The notes below the pieces were generated by a model that worked only from the letters and a program-made list of their open reading frames with translations, was not told the origin of the DNA and ran no database searches. From Myxococcaceae bacterium JPH2 (GTDB lineage Bacteria; Myxococcota; Myxococcia; Myxococcales; Myxococcaceae), in NCBI GenBank assembly GCA_016458225.1, contig JAEMGR010000036.1:1-64000 (forward strand): a stretch of DNA of 64,000 nucleotides, given 5' to 3'. Numbering within the stretch: position 1 is the first letter of the stretch; each line of letters starts with the position of its first letter. Positions 24,381 through 31,741 of the stretch are shown piece by piece. Position numbers and translations under genes: made by a program.

Positions 24381-25847
24381 ATGCACCCGCGCTTCCTCCG
24401 CTTCCGACCCTCCGTTGCCGGGCTGGCCTTCCTCGGACTCATCTGGGGGCTCGTGCTCGCCCCGGGCTGTGGGCGCAAGGAGGCACCCTCCGCCCCGGGG
24501 GACTTCCGTGGGCGCACGCTGCGCATCGGCACGGACGCCACCTATCCGCCCTTTGAGTCGGTGCACGACGGGGAGCTGGTCGGCTTCGACGTGGAGCTGG
24601 GCAACCTGGTGGGCGAGGAGCTGGGCGCCAAGGTCGAGTGGACGAACACCTCGTTCGACGGTGTCTTCCCCGCGCTGCTCGCCGGCAAGTTCGACCTGGT
24701 GATGTCCGCCGTCACCATCACCCCGGAGCGGCAGGAGCGTCTGGCCTTTTCGGATCCGTATTACACGGCCGGCCAGCGGGTGGCCGCGCGCCAGGATGAC
24801 CTGAGCATCACTGGCATCGAGAGCCTGCGCGGCAAGGTCGCGGGCATCCAGATCAACACCACCGCCGCGCTGGTGCTCCAGAAGCTCCCGGACGTGCAGG
24901 TGCGCCAGTACCCGAGCATCGACCTGGCGCTGCAGGACCTGCTCAACGGCAACCTCGCGGGCGTGGTGGGGGACTCGCCGACGCTGCGCTACTTCATCCA
25001 CCACGGCTTCAAGGGCCTGCGCACCACCGGGGACCTGCTCACCGAGGAGCACTACGGAATCGTGATGCGGCCGGACGACCCGGCCCTGCGCACGGCGGTG
25101 AACGCGGCGCTGAAGCGGCTGCGCGACAATGGTCGGTTCGCCGCGCTGGAGGAGAAGTACTTCGGAGTCGCGGCGCAGCAGGCCAAGCCAGCGCTGACGG
25201 GCGTGCCTTGGGGCAGCGTGGCGCGTCGGCTGGTGCGGGGCATGGCGCTGACGCTGGGGCTCACCGCGCTGGCGCTCCTGGCCGGTCTGCCTTTGGGGCT
25301 GGGCGTGGCGCTGGGGCGGCGCGCGAAGCCGAAGGTGCTGGCGTGGCTGTGCGCGGGCTATGTCGAGGTGCTGCGCGGGACGCCGCTGCTCGTGCAGATC
25401 ATCTTCATCTACTACGCGCTGCCGCAGCTGCTCGGGGTGGACCTGGCGCCGTTCCTGGCGGCGGTGCTGGCGCTGACGCTCAACAGCGCGGCCTATGTGG
25501 CGGAGATCTTCCGCGCGGGCATCGCGTCGGTGGACCCGGGGCAGTCCGAGGCCGCGCGCGCGTTGGGCATGAGCTCCGCGCAGGCCATGCGCTTCGTCAT
25601 CCTCCCGCAGGCGGTGCGCAACGTGCTGCCGCCGCTGACGAACGAGGGCATCGCGCTGCTGAAGGACTCGTCGCTGGTGTCCATCATCGGCATGGCGGAG
25701 CTGACGCGCTCGGGGCAGGAGCTGGCCAGCCAGCTCGCGGCGCCGTTGGCCATCTGGCCGCTGGTGGCGGTGTTCTATCTCCTGGCCACGTTGCCGCTGA
25801 CACGGCTGGCCGCGGCGCTGGAACGGCGCCTCCAAAATCAACGCTGA
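24381..25847 (+). CDS. Fused amino-acid ABC substrate-binding/permease protein
   Basis: 488 residues. A lipoprotein signal ends in LAPGC (Cys30). Residues about 40-265 form a type-2 periplasmic binding protein for polar amino acids ([13 protein letters not shown], then F-D-V-E-L). Residues about 275-485 form a HisM/GlnP-type permease with five or six helices and the EAA loop ([23 protein letters not shown]). Binding protein and permease in one chain are known for some glutamine/glutamate importers. It is followed 8 bp later by its ATPase. Convergent 5-oxoprolinase genes suggest glutamate-type nutrition as a theme (inference). Confidence 0.92.
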
Positions 25848-25855
25848 GGAACGAC

Positions 25856-26590
25856 ATGGCGCTCGTCGAAGTCCGCAACCTGCACAAGCGCTTCGGGGCG
25901 GTGGACGTCCTGCGTGGCGTGGACCTCACCGTTCAACCGGGCGAGGTGGTGGTGTTCGTCGGCCCGTCCGGATGTGGAAAGTCCACGCTGCTTCGGTGCC
26001 TGTGTGGCCTGGAGCTGCCGTCCGAAGGCGAAGTGATGGTGGGTGGAGTGCCCGTGCGAGATGACGCCGCGGCGCTCCAGGCCCTGCATCGCCGAGTGGG
26101 CATGGTGTTCCAGCGCTTCCACCTGTTCCCGCACCTCAGCGCGTTGCAGAACGTGACGCTGGCGCCGCGCAAGGTGCTGGGCATGCCCGATGCGGAGGCC
26201 GAGGTGTTGGGCCGGCGCATGCTGTCGATGGTGCATCTGGGCGATCGCGTGGACGCATACCCGGCGCAGCTCTCGGGTGGGCAGCAGCAGCGGGTGGCCA
26301 TTGCTCGCGCGCTGGCGATGAAGCCGGAGCTGATGCTCTTCGATGAGCCCACGAGCGCGCTGGACCCCGAGCTGGTGGGCGAGGTGCTGGAGGTCATGCG
26401 CGAGCTGGCGCGCGAGGGCATGACCATGTGCGTGGTGACGCACGAGATGGGCTTCGCCGCGGACGTGGCTCACCGCGTGCTCTTCCTCGACGGAGGCCGC
26501 GTGGTGGAGGAAGGCACGCCGCAGCAGGTGCTTCGCGAGCCGAAGCAGCCGCGTACCCGTGAGTTCCTCGCGCGCCTGCTCCAGCGCTGA
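25856..26590 (+). CDS. Amino-acid ABC transporter ATP-binding protein (GlnQ-like)
   Basis: 244 residues from ATG 25856, preceded by GAGGA. Walker [11 protein letters not shown]-loop [10 protein letters not shown], signature [17 protein letters not shown], Walker [20 protein letters not shown], and a switch His in VVTHEMGFA are all intact. The length and E-V-(L)-E-V-M-(R)-x-L-A motif are those of polar amino-acid importers. It is the second gene of the operon with the fused binding/permease protein. Confidence 0.94.
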
Positions 26591-26641: not shown

Positions 26642-27523
26642 TCAGCGCTCGGTGGACAGGCCCAGCTCGGCGGCGCGGTGGGTCCACGCTTCTCGTGCTT
26701 CTTCGACGGACACGGACGCGAAGCGCACGTGGGCGCCGGGGCGGCGCGCGGCGAGCCGTCCCCAGTCCGCGCGGATGACGACGGCGATGAGCGGATAGCC
26801 TCCCGTCGTGGGGTGATCCGGCCCGAGCACGATGGGCTCTCCGGACAACGTCACCTGGATGGCCCCGCGCGCCATGGGCCTCGACGTACCCGTGCCTTCA
26901 TCGCCATGGGGAATGGCGGCACCGCGCAGCCGCATGCCCACCCGGTCACTCAGCGTGGACACGGTGAAGTCCGTGCCCACCAGCAGCGGCAGCGCCGTGG
27001 CGTCGAAGCGCTCCAGGTCCGGCCCCGCGGTGACTCGCACAGGGGCCTGCGCGTCCAGGCTCACCTCGGGGGATTGAGCGTCGGGCGGACCATTGCCGGC
27101 GCCGAGGGGGAGCGCGTCTCCCGGGCGCAGGGCGCGCCCCTGATGCCCGCCCAGGTTCGCGACGAGCAGCGTGCCCCGTCCTCCCAACACCTCGGGCACC
27201 GCGATGCCTCCGTCCACCGCGACGTAGCGCACGGCGAGGGACTCGGGGGCGGGGACGGTGAAGGTCTCGCCATCCGCCACCGTGAACGAGCGCCCGTCCA
27301 CGGAGATGCGGGCCGCGCGGCCGCGCACTCGCAGCGCCAGCCGCCCGTAGGATTCGAGCGCCGCCGCGCCTCGGGGATTGCCCACCGCGCGGTTGGCCGC
27401 CACGAGCAACTCCGGAACCAAGGGCCCTCCGGAGGGGACGCCGTGGTGCATCTGCCCGGGGCGCCCGCCATCCTGCACCGTGACCGGCGCACCCATTCCG
27501 GTGATGTCCAGCCAGCCGTTCAT
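26642..27523 (-). CDS. pxpC: 5-oxoprolinase subunit C (PxpC)
   Basis: 293 residues, ATG 27523 overlapping the upstream TGA by 4 bp. KipA/PxpC family features: Q-D-G-G-R-(P)-G near residue 18, G-x-P-x-G-(G)-x, A-A-L-E-x, the D-R-x-G-x-R-L-x-G motif (DRVGMRLRG), and G-x-x-Q-(V)-x-x-x-G-x-P-I-(V)-L, P-T-T-G-G-Y-P. With PxpA and PxpB it hydrolyses 5-oxoproline to glutamate using ATP. Translationally coupled to the fused PxpAB protein. Confidence 0.92.
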   Translation of the reverse strand: MNGWLDITGMGAPVTVQDGGRPGQMHHGVPSGGPLVPELLVAANRAVGNPRGAAALESYGRLALRVRGRAARISVDGRSFTVADGETFTVPAPESLAVRYVAVDGGIAVPEVLGGRGTLLVANLGGHQGRALRPGDALPLGAGNGPPDAQSPEVSLDAQAPVRVTAGPDLERFDATALPLLVGTDFTVSTLSDRVGMRLRGAAIPHGDEGTGTSRPMARGAIQVTLSGEPIVLGPDHPTTGGYPLIAVVIRADWGRLAARRPGAHVRFASVSVEEAREAWTHRAAELGLSTER

Positions 27524-28809
27524 GCATCCACCTGCTCGAAGCGCACCCGGTCTCCGGGCCGCAGCACCGCGCCCCGCTCCGAGTCGAAGGCCGTGAAGTC
27601 CAGCGCGGTCCCCACCAGGTTCCATCCCCCGGGGGACGTGAAGGGGTAGACGCCCGTGCGCGCTCCCGCGATGCCCACCGAGAGCGCCGGCACTCGCGCG
27701 CGAGGCGAGGCCAGTCGCGGGCACGCGATGCTTGGGTCCACTTCGCCCAGGTAGGCGAACCCTGGCAGGAAGCCCACGCATCGGACGGTGTACTCGCGCG
27801 CCGCGTGCCGTCGCGCCACCTCGTCCACCGTCAACCCGCCGTGCTCCGCCACCTTCGCCAGGTCGGGGCCGTCGTAGCGCACGCGCAGGGTGACGCGCGG
27901 ATGGGGCTGCTCGACCGCGGGCAGCAAGCGCAAGCGCGCGAGGACGAGCCGAGGCTCCTCCGGAGGCGCGTCGGGAGCGAAGTACACGCTGACGTGGTCC
28001 TCGGTGAGGACGCAATCCACCACGTGAGGCAGGGCGCGCAGGGTCTCCTGTGCCCGTCCTCCGTCCAGCCCCTCCGGGAGCGTCAGTCGCAGCGCGCACT
28101 CGCCCAGCGGGTCCTCGCGAATCGCGAGTGCATCCAGTCCCGCACGCACCTCGGTGGCCAGGGTGACCGCGCCCGGCGTGTCGCCGTGAACGCACAGCGT
28201 CTCGACCGCACCGCTCTTCGCCAGCCGCGAGGCGTTCTCCCGCACGCGCGCGAGGTCCGTCAGCACGGCCCCGGGCTGGCCCCTCGGGATGAGCGAGCCG
28301 TCCGGCCGCGTCCCCCGGTCCGCGAAGCCCTCGCGCAGATAGGCGAGGCTCGCCTCGCGCGCCGCGTCCCACAGCGCCCCCTGCGGAGGCCCGATGAGCG
28401 TGAGGTCCGGTCCCAGCGCGCGGATGAGTCCCGCGACGACCGCCCGAGCGATGGCCGGCGTGGCGTGGGCTGCGTGGTAGAGCGCGCCGTGGGGCTTGGC
28501 GAAGGCGACGCGCTGGCCCCGCTCGGAGGCGAGCCTCGCGAGCCGGGTGCATTGCTCCGCCACTTGCTGACCGAGGACGTCAGGGGCGACGTCGAGCGTG
28601 CGCCGCCCGAAGCCTTCGCGATCCTCGAACGATGGGTGCGCACCGACGTGAGTGCCGTGCCGCTCACATTGCGCCAAGGCGTGGCGCATGGAGGCGTCAT
28701 CCCCCGCGTGTCCGCCGCACGCGATGTTGGCCACGTGCGCCAGGGCGTAGAGCCGAGGGTCCTCGTCGGGCAGCTCGCCCAGGTCGATGTTGAGGAGGCA
28801 CCCCATCAT
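27520..28809 (-). CDS. Fused 5-oxoprolinase subunits A and B (PxpA-PxpB)
   Basis: 429 residues from ATG 28809 (or the adjacent ATG 28806). Residues 1 to about 225 are a LamB/YcsF (PxpA) domain: L-N-(I)-D-L-G-E, N-I-A-C-G-G-H-A-G-D, G-A-H-P-S-(F)-x-D, V-K-P-H-G-A-L-Y-like AKPHGALYH, and C-V-H-G-D-T-P-G-A. Residues about 230-429 are a KipI (PxpB) domain: Y-D-G-P-D-L, V-G-F-x-P-G-F-A-Y-(L)-G, and P-G-G-W-(N)-L-(V)-G-x-T. The subunits are normally separate; the fusion is in frame with no stop between. It makes glutamate from 5-oxoproline together with PxpC. Confidence 0.92.
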   Translation of the reverse strand: MMGCLLNIDLGELPDEDPRLYALAHVANIACGGHAGDDASMRHALAQCERHGTHVGAHPSFEDREGFGRRTLDVAPDVLGQQVAEQCTRLARLASERGQRVAFAKPHGALYHAAHATPAIARAVVAGLIRALGPDLTLIGPPQGALWDAAREASLAYLREGFADRGTRPDGSLIPRGQPGAVLTDLARVRENASRLAKSGAVETLCVHGDTPGAVTLATEVRAGLDALAIREDPLGECALRLTLPEGLDGGRAQETLRALPHVVDCVLTEDHVSVYFAPDAPPEEPRLVLARLRLLPAVEQPHPRVTLRVRYDGPDLAKVAEHGGLTVDEVARRHAAREYTVRCVGFLPGFAYLGEVDPSIACPRLASPRARVPALSVGIAGARTGVYPFTSPGGWNLVGTALDFTAFDSERGAVLRPGDRVRFEQVDA

Positions 28810-28825
28810 GGGCGCCACGCTACAC

Positions 28826-28905
28826 AAAAAAATCCAGCACTGGTCCGTGCCCACCCGGTGACCAGGGTCTCTGGTCGCGGCGAAGACACGGAGGCCAGTG
28901 CTGGA
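28826..28905 (-). promoter_or_regulatory. Long hairpin with T-run upstream of pxpAB
   Basis: The arms 28833-28849 and 28887-28905 pair as 11 bp (TCCAGCACTGG) plus 6 bp (TCCGTG), with a two-base bulge. A small inner hairpin is GACCAG/CTGGTC (28860-28876). On the minus strand the outer stem is followed directly by seven T (28826-28832), the form of an intrinsic terminator. It ends only 16 bases before the pxpAB start, leaving no room for a promoter between, so it probably lies in the pxpAB leader and could act as an attenuator. Alternatively it terminates the upstream cytochrome gene. Confidence 0.6.
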
Positions 28906-29085
28906 ACCGCGCCCCCGGAATAAGGGGCCGGCCTGATTCCGGAAGACGCGGGTGCCCCCCCGCCACCATGGAGGGGAAGGCGAACTGAACTACGAGGTGA
29001 TTTGGAGGACTCCCCCCTCGTGCACCACCTCTTCCGGGATACGTGGCGAGGGGCTTTTTCTGGCAATTTCGCCGTGAATCTTTTG

Positions 29086-30510
29086 TCAGCGCGGCGTCGC
29101 CAGGGTCGAGGGGCCACCGGCCTTCACCCACCGAACGAGGGCCAGCGCGGTGCGCTCGTCAATCAGCTCGGCGTAGGTGGGCATGGGCGTGCCCGGCAGG
29201 TACTTCTCCGGGTTGCGCACCCACTTCACCAGCTCCAGGTCCGAGCGGTGGGCCGCGTGCGCGAGCCGGTCGTGGTAGCGCGCCCCGGGCGCATGGCAGC
29301 TCGAGCACCCGTACTGGACGAACAGCTTCGCCGCGTCCACCTTCGCGGGCGTCAGCACGGGCCTCGGCTTGCGCACCACGGGATTCACCTGCCCGCTGGC
29401 CAGCGTGGTCGCGGGAGGGGGCGTCGAGCCGACCGAGGGCGTCGCCGTGGGTGTGGTCGTCGGAGGAGGCGCAGCAGGTGTCGGAAGGGCCTCGGCGACG
29501 GCGGCCTCGGCGGCGGTGTCGAGCTGGGTCTCCGCGCTCTGGTCGCCCGCGCCCGTGTCGGGATTCACCCAGGCCGCGCGGACGCTGGTGGCGGTGAGGC
29601 GGGGGCGCGCGCCGTCCACGTTGTTCTTCTTCGGAGCCAGGGTGCGCAGGTAGTCGTAGAGCGCCCGGGCCTCGGCTTCATCGAGGGCGCGGAAGCGCGG
29701 CATGGGGGAGCGCAGCGCCGAGCCATCCGGCGCGAGCCCGTCGCGCAGCGCGCGGGTGAAGTCCGCGAGCGTCCAGTTCGCGAGGCCTGTGGCATCGAAC
29801 GTGAGGTTGCTGGAGTAGACCTTGCGGCCCTCGGGGTCCACGAAGGCCATGCCGCCCGAGAAGGCGTCGTCGCCTTTCGTCTTGTCGGGGCTGAAGCCGT
29901 CCGTGTGGCACGAGGCGCAGTCGTAGACCTCGTGGGCCATGTAGCGGCCGTACTCCAGCGTGGGCCCCTTGGGGGGCACGGGGATGCCGGAGGCGGGGCG
30001 CTCCGCGGGGGTGTTGCCGGTGATGAAGCGGAAGCCGATGCCGCCCACGAAGCTGAACTCGCACGCGGGCGCGGGCTTTGGATCCGCTCGGAACAGCGGG
30101 TCCTCCGAGCGCAGGAAGCCCAGCACCGCCGCGAGGTCCGCGTCGCCCATGCCGTAGCTGGGCATCACCATGAGGCGCCCGTCGCGACTCACCGCGTAGC
30201 GGATGGCGCGCGCCAGCTCCTCGTCCTTCGCCGCGCCAATGCCGCCCACCGGATCCGCGGTCAGGTTGGCCGAGTGGAAGCGGCCCATGTACGAGGGCAG
30301 CTCGCGCAAGGGCGCGCCCGAGGCGGTGTCTCGGTCTCCGCCGCGATGACAGGCCTCACAGCTCGCGTGGAAGATGTCGGCGCCGCGCACGAGCGCCTGG
30401 GGAGACGTGTCCGCGCGGATGGGCGGGTAGGGCGCGTGGACGGTGCCCGCGCATCCCGAGAGCAGCACGAGGGTCGACAGCACGGCAGCCAGCACGTCGC
30501 GGCGCATCAT
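29086..30510 (-). CDS. Tri-haem c-type cytochrome lipoprotein
   Basis: 474 residues. Lipobox LLSGC (Cys20). Three haem-binding motifs: CEACH (51-55), CASCH (198-202) and CSSCH (402-406). They sit in three cytochrome-c domains; the third is separated by a Pro/Thr/Ala-rich linker (about 335-385). The first two domains resemble membrane-side cytochromes of alcohol-dehydrogenase type, with the segment N-L-T as in 'SNLT/ANLT'. It probably carries electrons at the cell surface or periplasm. Neighbours give no partner oxidoreductase. Confidence 0.88.
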   Translation of the reverse strand: MMRRDVLAAVLSTLVLLSGCAGTVHAPYPPIRADTSPQALVRGADIFHASCEACHRGGDRDTASGAPLRELPSYMGRFHSANLTADPVGGIGAAKDEELARAIRYAVSRDGRLMVMPSYGMGDADLAAVLGFLRSEDPLFRADPKPAPACEFSFVGGIGFRFITGNTPAERPASGIPVPPKGPTLEYGRYMAHEVYDCASCHTDGFSPDKTKGDDAFSGGMAFVDPEGRKVYSSNLTFDATGLANWTLADFTRALRDGLAPDGSALRSPMPRFRALDEAEARALYDYLRTLAPKKNNVDGARPRLTATSVRAAWVNPDTGAGDQSAETQLDTAAEAAVAEALPTPAAPPPTTTPTATPSVGSTPPPATTLASGQVNPVVRKPRPVLTPAKVDAAKLFVQYGCSSCHAPGARYHDRLAHAAHRSDLELVKWVRNPEKYLPGTPMPTYAELIDERTALALVRWVKAGGPSTLATPR

Positions 30511-30601
30511 GGGCTCCTCAACTCGGGGCGCAGGACGGATAGCGCACTTCGGGCCCTTCGTGGAGACCCCCTCCCGCGCGCTCGCGGCTACAGTGCCTCG
30601 G

Positions 30602-31741
30602 ATGACCCGCCCCCTCGAGTCCTACCGCGCCGAGTTCCCTGTCCTACAGGAGCAGCTCTACCTGAATCACGCGGGCGTGGCGCCCACGAGCCTGCGCGCC
30701 GCGAGCGCCGTGCGTGGCTGGATGGAGGACCTGGTGCATACCGGCATCCAGCACGAGCGCGGCTGGGAGGCCCACTGCGAGAAGGTCCGAGGCATGGCCG
30801 CGCGGCTCATCGGTGCCGCGCCGGACGAAGTGGCCTTCGTGCGCAACACCAGCCACGGCCTGGGCCTGGTGGCCGAGGGACTCGACTGGCGTCCCGGTGA
30901 CGAGGTCGTGGTGGCCACCCGCCTGGAGTACCCCTCCAATGTCTATCCCTGGCTCCACCTGCGCGACCGCGGCGTGGTGGTGCGCGACATCGAGACGCCC
31001 GCGGGCGGAGTCACGCCGGAGGCAGTGGCCGCCTCGCTCACCTCGCGCACGCGGTTGGTGGCCGTGTCGTCCGTGCAGTTCGCGACGGGGTACCGCACGG
31101 ACCTCGATGCGCTCGGGGCGGTGTGCGAACGCGCGGGCGCGTTGTTGTGCGTGGACGGCATCCAGAGCGTGGGCTGCGTGCCGGTGGACGTGAAGAAGTC
31201 TCGCGCGCACTTCCTCAGCGCGGACAGCCACAAGTGGATGCTGGGCATCGCGGGCATCGGCATCCTCTACGTGGCGCGCGACGTCCTGCCGCGCGTGCGC
31301 CCGGTGCTGGTGGGCTGGCGCAGCACCACGGACGCGTGGAACTTCAATCGCAGCCACTTCGAGCTGCGCCCGGACGCGCTGAAGTTCGAGGAGGGCAGCG
31401 CGGCCTACACCGGCATCTACGCGCTGGGCGCGGCGCTGGAGCTGTTGCTGGAGGTGGGGGTGGACCGCATCGCCGAGCGCATCGGCCAGCTCGTCTCGCG
31501 GCTGGAGGCGGGCCTTCGCGACCTGGGCTGCGACGTGGGGCCCGCGCCCGAACACCGCGCGGGCATCCTCACCTTCCTGCCGCCCGGCGCGGATCCGCGC
31601 GCGCTCAGCACCTGGTTGTCCGAGCGCAAGGTGGCGCATTCCGTGCGGCGCGGGCGCATCCGCCTGTCGCCGCACTTCTACAACACGCCAGAGGAGATGG
31701 ACCGGGTGGTGAGCTGGGTGCGCGAGTTCGCGCACCCCTGA
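30602..31741 (+). CDS. Class V aminotransferase (isopenicillin-N epimerase-like)
   Basis: 379 residues from ATG 30602. PLP fold-type I class V: L-N-H-A-G-V-A-P-T-S opening, N-T-(S)-H-G-L, D-G-I-Q-S-V-G, and the Schiff-base Lys in S-A-D-S-H-K-W-M-L-G. This branch contains cysteine desulfurase-like and isopenicillin-N epimerase-like enzymes; the last lack the conserved catalytic Cys loop of IscS/SufS, as here, so desulfurase activity is not supported. It stands beside the convergent cysK-cysE genes. The substrate is not evident. Confidence 0.85.
   Translation: MTRPLESYRAEFPVLQEQLYLNHAGVAPTSLRAASAVRGWMEDLVHTGIQHERGWEAHCEKVRGMAARLIGAAPDEVAFVRNTSHGLGLVAEGLDWRPGDEVVVATRLEYPSNVYPWLHLRDRGVVVRDIETPAGGVTPEAVAASLTSRTRLVAVSSVQFATGYRTDLDALGAVCERAGALLCVDGIQSVGCVPVDVKKSRAHFLSADSHKWMLGIAGIGILYVARDVLPRVRPVLVGWRSTTDAWNFNRSHFELRPDALKFEEGSAAYTGIYALGAALELLLEVGVDRIAERIGQLVSRLEAGLRDLGCDVGPAPEHRAGILTFLPPGADPRALSTWLSERKVAHSVRRGRIRLSPHFYNTPEEMDRVVSWVREFAHP

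Follow-up and report, generated by a model that had tools for sequence, protein, structure and literature searches.

Directly upstream of the fused 5-oxoprolinase gene pxpA-pxpB (pxpAB), the minus strand carries a long, stable hairpin that is followed at once by seven T. The best explanation for this locus, to which we give a probability of roughly 0.6, is that it combines a terminator, a separate leaderless start for pxpAB, and an upstream RNA unit. The hairpin and T tract would act as a factor-independent terminator that stops polymerase arriving from upstream. The transcripts stopped would be those of a structured RNA started at the block at 29070–29038, plus read-through from a cytochrome gene (see below). 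The terminator would close a short RNA of ∼200 nt and would insulate pxpAB, which would be started separately 16 bases further on, from the sequence TAGCGT, with the A of the ATG as the first base of its mRNA.

The window, meaning the whole 64,000-nucleotide stretch of DNA that was analyzed, comes from a genome of Myxococcaceae type. Its sister, Citreicoccus inhibens M34, shares 93% protein identity with it in pxpAB. Along the minus strand, a c-type cytochrome-like gene comes first, then fused pxpA-pxpB after an intergenic stretch of 276 bases, and finally pxpC. At 30443–31741 is what we take, by eye, to be an aminotransferase-like gene. A glutamine/amino-acid type ABC transporter on the plus strand (24381–26590; a fused binding protein-permease, then the ATPase) converges on pxpC and may serve the same pathway. 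Relatives are referred to below by group: g1 comprises the two Citreicoccus genomes (G000 and G014), g5 is Corallococcus-like, and g19 is Myxococcus-like. The features of the locus are:

26642–27535, minus strand: pxpC, the next gene (family-model match below the curated cut-off)
27520–28809, minus strand: fused pxpA-pxpB, 5-oxoprolinase subunits (NCBIfam PxpA and PxpB matches, below curated cut-offs)
28809–28807, minus strand: ATG of pxpA
28817–28822, minus strand: TAGCGT, 7 nt from the ATG, proposed as the −10 box of a leaderless pxpAB promoter (from ortholog conservation)
28826–28832, minus strand: run of seven T (U tract) directly after the stem (from the sequence)
28833–28905, minus strand: terminator-type hairpin with a 20-bp outer stem, a 2-nt bulge, and an inner hairpin (from folding)
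28907–28950, minus strand: probable diverged hairpin B (from a weak covariance-model alignment)
28939–29037, minus strand: body of the RNA candidate (from folding)
29038–29070, minus strand: promoter-like block GAAATTGCCAGAAAAA-N11-CGTATC, proposed P1 (variable in its middle part; no gaps in any of 26 aligned rows)
29086–30510, minus strand: upstream c-type cytochrome-like gene (weak cytochrome c matches only; orthologs in relatives)

Hairpin and T tract before pxpAB

Bases 28905–28833 form a single 73-base fold made up of 11 bp, a 2-nt bulge, 9 bp, and an inner hairpin. The first-pass annotation had described 17 bp of pairing with a 2-base bulge and an inner hairpin; the hairpin, bulge, and inner hairpin are as described, but the outer pairs number 20. 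It was right that seven T follow on the minus strand (28832–28826) and that 16 bases separate the end of the T tract at 28826 from the pxpAB start at 28809. The energy of the fold is −50.7 kcal/mol versus −27.5 (SD 3.9) for shuffled sequences (z −6), and none of 200 shuffles was as good. Both marks of an intrinsic terminator are present, a stable GC-rich hairpin and a U tract directly after the stem, which bears out the earlier description of the hairpin as terminator-like. It starts 180 nt behind the stop codon of the cytochrome gene, on the same strand, and only a few bases separate its beginning from hairpin B of the RNA candidate. Judged by sequence and fold, the hairpin and T tract look like a factor-independent terminator for RNA from upstream.

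Runs of at least five T number 22 on the two strands of the Citreicoccus DNA surveyed (464 kb, made up of 144 kb from G000 and 320 kb from G014). The run at 28826–28832 has the strongest hairpin of these (−49.9 in this survey, the next best being −31.3) and is the sole run of seven. The survey labels this hairpin as inside a gene, an artifact of a crude gene caller that chose the longest pxpA start. Runs of at least six T are nearly absent from the Citreicoccus, G069, and G028 samples (two, two, and four, respectively, on both strands of 464, 400, and 400 kb), so that these genomes must have few classic terminators. A simple terminator scan reports only the top five pairs of the hairpin, and overall the scan was not above chance (two found vs. 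1.2 expected).

The first-pass annotation had made its reading depend on conservation of the structure in related genomes. A search of 96 family genomes with the 88-base hairpin element found it in only two, G000 and G014, both Citreicoccus, so that by sequence the hairpin lacks such conservation; the search is sequence-based and would miss an unrelated hairpin at the same place. A third, weak match, in G058 (E 4.5e-4), has no hairpin-plus-T layout, is coding DNA by eye, and was taken as chance. The two Citreicoccus copies are identical in the outer stem and T tract and differ at three positions (the bulge, a base unpaired in the window fold, and one that breaks an inner pair). No hairpin covariation comes from three differences between two closely related genomes, which is too little change for a test. 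A run of seven T within 200 bases before pxpA occurs only in the two Citreicoccus among 56 orthologs. Four of the other 54, all more distant orthologs (L055, L056, L057, and L060; three from g6 and one from g8), have a run of five within that distance.

A repeat or mobile element was considered and rejected, as the matches to the hairpin in its own genome are its own place and its own complement only. As a separate observation, both Citreicoccus genomes hold an imperfect palindrome of ∼75 bases that begins GAACGACCGTTCAGATGTC and is followed by five T (L062 at ∼4374, minus strand; L072 at ∼17613, plus strand), and this looks like a small dispersed element.

Probable leaderless start of pxpAB

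It had been argued earlier that a promoter cannot fit between the hairpin and the start of pxpAB. That argument is not supported, because a −10 box 6–9 nt before the ATG is all that leaderless initiation requires, and such a box, TAGCGT, is present there and conserved. Overall, 57 family genomes match pxpAB, of which 56 were used, with one locus each (52 with fused pxpAB and four with the PxpA part only). G051, with two pieces of weak pxp similarity (42%–49%), was left out; L033 and L004 are one and the same genome, and neither L034 nor L035 was used. TANNNT lies 6–9 nt before the pxpA start in 47 of the 56 orthologs (2/2 in g1, 16/16 in g5, and 26/26 in g19, thus 44/44 in these three groups, with 3/6 in g3 and 0/6 in g6–g8). 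The background, from the same window shifted further upstream, is 10 of 2240 offsets. All 47 read TANNGTG, and the nine orthologs without the box all belong to g3 and g6–g8. Shine-Dalgarno-like words before pxpA occur in none of the 44 orthologs of g1, g5, and g19. The −10 box is retained with four different upstream contexts: the hairpin (g1), the plain RNA, an inserted gene (G056 and G067), and another gene (g5), which ends 26–27 bp before the pxpA ATG in 16 of 16 cases.

The same signal is seen at other genes in samples of three genera. TANNNT 6–10 nt before ATG was counted 28 times versus 5.8 expected in Citreicoccus (628 starts of roughly called genes; the sample draws on two related genomes, counts some genes twice, and includes pxpA itself), 20 versus 4.7 in G069 (618 starts), and 16 versus 4.1 in G028 (664 starts). 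Before GTG, there is little or no peak (8 vs. 5.6, 6 vs. 3.6, and 6 vs. 4.1, respectively). TANNNT ∼12 bp before the start has been described as a mark of leaderless genes in eight of 33 delta-proteobacterial genomes, with Myxococcus not named in the text of that paper (PMC3160421). Most likely, given the conservation of the box and its spacing, pxpAB starts leaderless from its own promoter, with the A of the ATG at 28809 as the predicted transcription start.

Further upstream, the picture differs among groups. A GCTGC motif in the −35 region, 15–26 bases before the −10 box, is found in 26 of 26 g19 and three of three g3 orthologs and is absent from g1 (0/2) and g5. The CTC before the −10 box is also absent in g1 (0/2). 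Because both motifs are missing in g1, where the hairpin occupies their place, the pxpAB promoter may be weak in Citreicoccus. A promoter scan found none for pxpAB, and no −35 box of sigma-70 type is recognizable at 16–18 bp.

Structured RNA upstream and rival readings

In the aligned intergenic regions, an upstream block and a structured RNA are conserved although the hairpin is not. The promoter-like block has the consensus GAAATNRCC-N-RNNAAA, eleven variable bases, CGTAT, and is ungapped in 26 of 26 rows. Behind it comes the RNA, for which 24 Myxococcus-like sequences give a 29-pair three-way junction. Pairing extends to 98.6% of cells versus 94.5% in shuffles, 33 cells are changed on both sides versus 8.3 in shuffles (0 of 500 reach 33), and six pairs have changes on both sides versus 3.2 (1 of 500 reach this); the rows are related, and these shuffle counts should not be read as a probability. 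On one of five measures, further pair types, the alignment does not exceed the shuffles (22 vs. 20.7; 119 of 500). Slid versions of the structure are 32%–54% paired. Stem A holds most of the change, whereas stem B is nearly invariant, as is its loop (nine of 12 loop columns).

Of the 27 g19 genomes, 26 have a single copy each according to a covariance model of this RNA, with E-values of 2e-24 or better. Outside g19, the model matches only five genomes (G017, G019, G027, G082, and G085), at E 0.005–0.09. The two inspected, G027 and G019, were rejected because the matched regions, 95% alike over 3 kb, are coding DNA by eye. Three of 59 genomes drawn from the order match the model, and all three are g19. 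One genome, G074, has the cytochrome gene without pxpAB or the RNA, but with its contig breaking off right behind the cytochrome gene it is uninformative. In three g19 genomes (G054, G070, and G079), no close cytochrome gene was found, and the gene before the RNA, aminotransferase-like by eye, is divergent; the RNA there would thus need its own promoter. These three of 26 genomes also rule out the idea that the RNA is a 3′ UTR of the cytochrome gene. Five relatives searched against Rfam yielded nothing at E up to 1, and among the papers listed in the literature searched, with many subscription papers outside its reach, none describes an RNA before pxpAB in myxobacteria. The conserved RNA of Myxococcus-like genomes is possibly new, acting perhaps as a small RNA, perhaps as a distal pxpAB leader.

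Wherever pxpAB is present in g19 (26 genomes), the RNA lies in cis before it. In 24 of these genomes the two are immediate neighbors, and in the other two (G056 and G067; L090 and L093) they are separated by an extra gene presumably encoding, from its look, an SMI1/KNR4-type protein. This arrangement would suit the hairpin being an attenuator, that is, were pxpAB transcribed from the upstream block through the RNA, with the hairpin as an RNA-controlled terminator (e.g., in a sensor of 5-oxoproline or glutamate). The persistence of the RNA where the cytochrome gene is absent also favors such control, as do two further details: the outer helix and hairpin B of the window exclude each other in a switch-like way, and g1 has lost the −35 motif that belongs to the proximal promoter. 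However, hairpin-like sequence is found at this place in none of the 26 RNA-bearing g19 genomes, meaning that the expression platform is not conserved with the aptamer, and the 23 g19 loci measured all lack runs of at least five T between the cytochrome gene and pxpAB. Nor was there an antiterminator: pairing of the terminator 5′ arm with the leader has an energy of −21.1 versus −20.8 for single-base shuffles, 41% of which are as good. Further points against it are that the ATG keeps its −10 box among relatives, that the RNA belongs to no Rfam class, and that Corallococcus-like pxpAB, behind a gene that ends so close to it, leaves no room for the RNA. We consider attenuation unlikely, while granting it some weight because the −35 motif has been lost in Citreicoccus. 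The “structured leader” of the first-pass annotation stands in that a conserved structured RNA lies upstream in relatives; this RNA is not the hairpin, and it may or may not serve as a leader of pxpAB.

The window may hold a diverged copy of the conserved RNA, the least secure element of the reading favored here, in which this copy would be made from the upstream block as its promoter and would stop at the hairpin. The block pattern, drawn from the alignment described above, fits 29070–29038 with no mismatches and fits once elsewhere in the window's own genome, with three. The outer helix of the RNA candidate pairs CCGGAAGA (29037–29030) with TCTTCCGG (28946–28939), and the fold of 28937–29037 has an energy of −49.9 (z −2.6; three of 200 shuffles as good). 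Run with filters off on 301 bases, model R1, which holds no Citreicoccus row, aligns weakly to 28994–28897 (12.0 bits, E 0.0017) and, again weakly, to the same place in C. inhibens (12.4 bits). Model R2 includes hairpin B of the window, and its match is by construction. With default settings over five sources, the model gave nothing at the expected place in the window; it scored 14.6 bits at an unrelated chance place (16491) and 12.5 bits (E 0.32) at the expected place in C. inhibens. At genome scale, there was no match in G000 or G014 at E 0.1.

In the R1 alignment, hairpin B falls on the second inverted repeat noted earlier. An alignment of 21 of the 24 available RNA rows with the two Citreicoccus rows shows the loop word CCGGCCCC kept, with T, at 28931–28923. 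The further repeat CCGGAAT/ATTCCGG that had been reported is at 28942–28936 and 28921–28915. The outer helix CCGGAAGA/TCTTCCGG and hairpin B are mutually exclusive in the window, and by this folding model they form a possible switch. Rfam gave only two matches at E up to 5 across 28400–29400 (best E 3.4), both far below gathering scores; together with the five relatives, this agrees with the earlier statement that no known riboswitch class is recognizable. The opposite, plus strand has a weaker hairpin (29014–29053; −18 kcal/mol) with CTTTTT after it, which overlaps the start of the RNA candidate.

The RNA body is strongly diverged in g1 and is weakly scored by the model, as would be expected if the RNA of the Citreicoccus lineage were a decayed relic and the hairpin, 180 nt behind the cytochrome stop codon and on the same strand, were a plain terminator of that gene only. 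We regard this as improbable, given that g1 keeps both the promoter-like block and the CCGGCCCC loop. It is very improbable that the hairpin, although an extended, imperfect palindrome with a match to its own complement, is a DNA-level or RNA-stability element (a protein site, or a 3′ stabilizer without terminator activity), as the T tract flanks just one side, precisely where a terminator would have it, and there is no second copy in the genome.

A broader proposal can be offered tentatively, with well under even odds. Myxococcus and Citreicoccus may share an undescribed RNA with its own promoter and the invariant C-rich loop CCGGCCCC, fixed beside the 5-oxoprolinase genes, that would sense a product of the pathway or act on the pathway as a small RNA. 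In Citreicoccus, it would have been severed from leaderless pxpAB by a new terminator.

Comparison with known systems

5-Oxoproline arises in every cell. The conserved RNA beside pxpAB is a concrete, testable object in a well-studied group, and the locus cautions against calling pre-gene hairpins attenuators where leaderless starts are common.

The hairpin resembles Rho-independent (intrinsic) terminators in its stable GC-rich stem, the U tract that follows at once, and its place downstream from a gene on the same strand. Unlike typical intrinsic terminators, it is very long (a 20-bp outer stem plus an inner hairpin), and it sits 16 bases before the start of the next gene, overlapping the place of that gene's −35 region. 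T tracts such as this one are very rare in this DNA. In turn, pxpAB resembles the leaderless (TA-led) genes described by Zheng et al. 2011 (PMC3160421) in having TANNNT at about the distance reported there, no Shine-Dalgarno sequence, and an ATG start. It differs from those genes in that the −35 region has been replaced by a terminator-type hairpin in the Citreicoccus lineage.

Control of a 5-oxoprolinase gene has a counterpart in PxpR, which acts on pxpTABC in Corynebacterium glutamicum (PMC13274462). PxpR is a GntR repressor with a DNA operator, unlike the RNA beside pxpAB, and no RNA element is named in the accessible part of that paper, in which the leaderless gene is pxpR itself. The authors of that 2026 study state that, to their knowledge, bacterial regulation of 5-oxoproline metabolism had previously been unstudied (PMC13274462). 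The small RNA Pxr of Myxococcus is, like the RNA considered here, an intergenic structured RNA of myxobacteria (PMC5568312). Identity with Pxr was rejected on the basis of its description in the accessible text: Pxr has nla19 on one side and an NADH dehydrogenase gene on the other, with a sigma-54 promoter described (PMC5568312), whereas the RNA on the pxpAB side has different neighbors and another promoter-like block.
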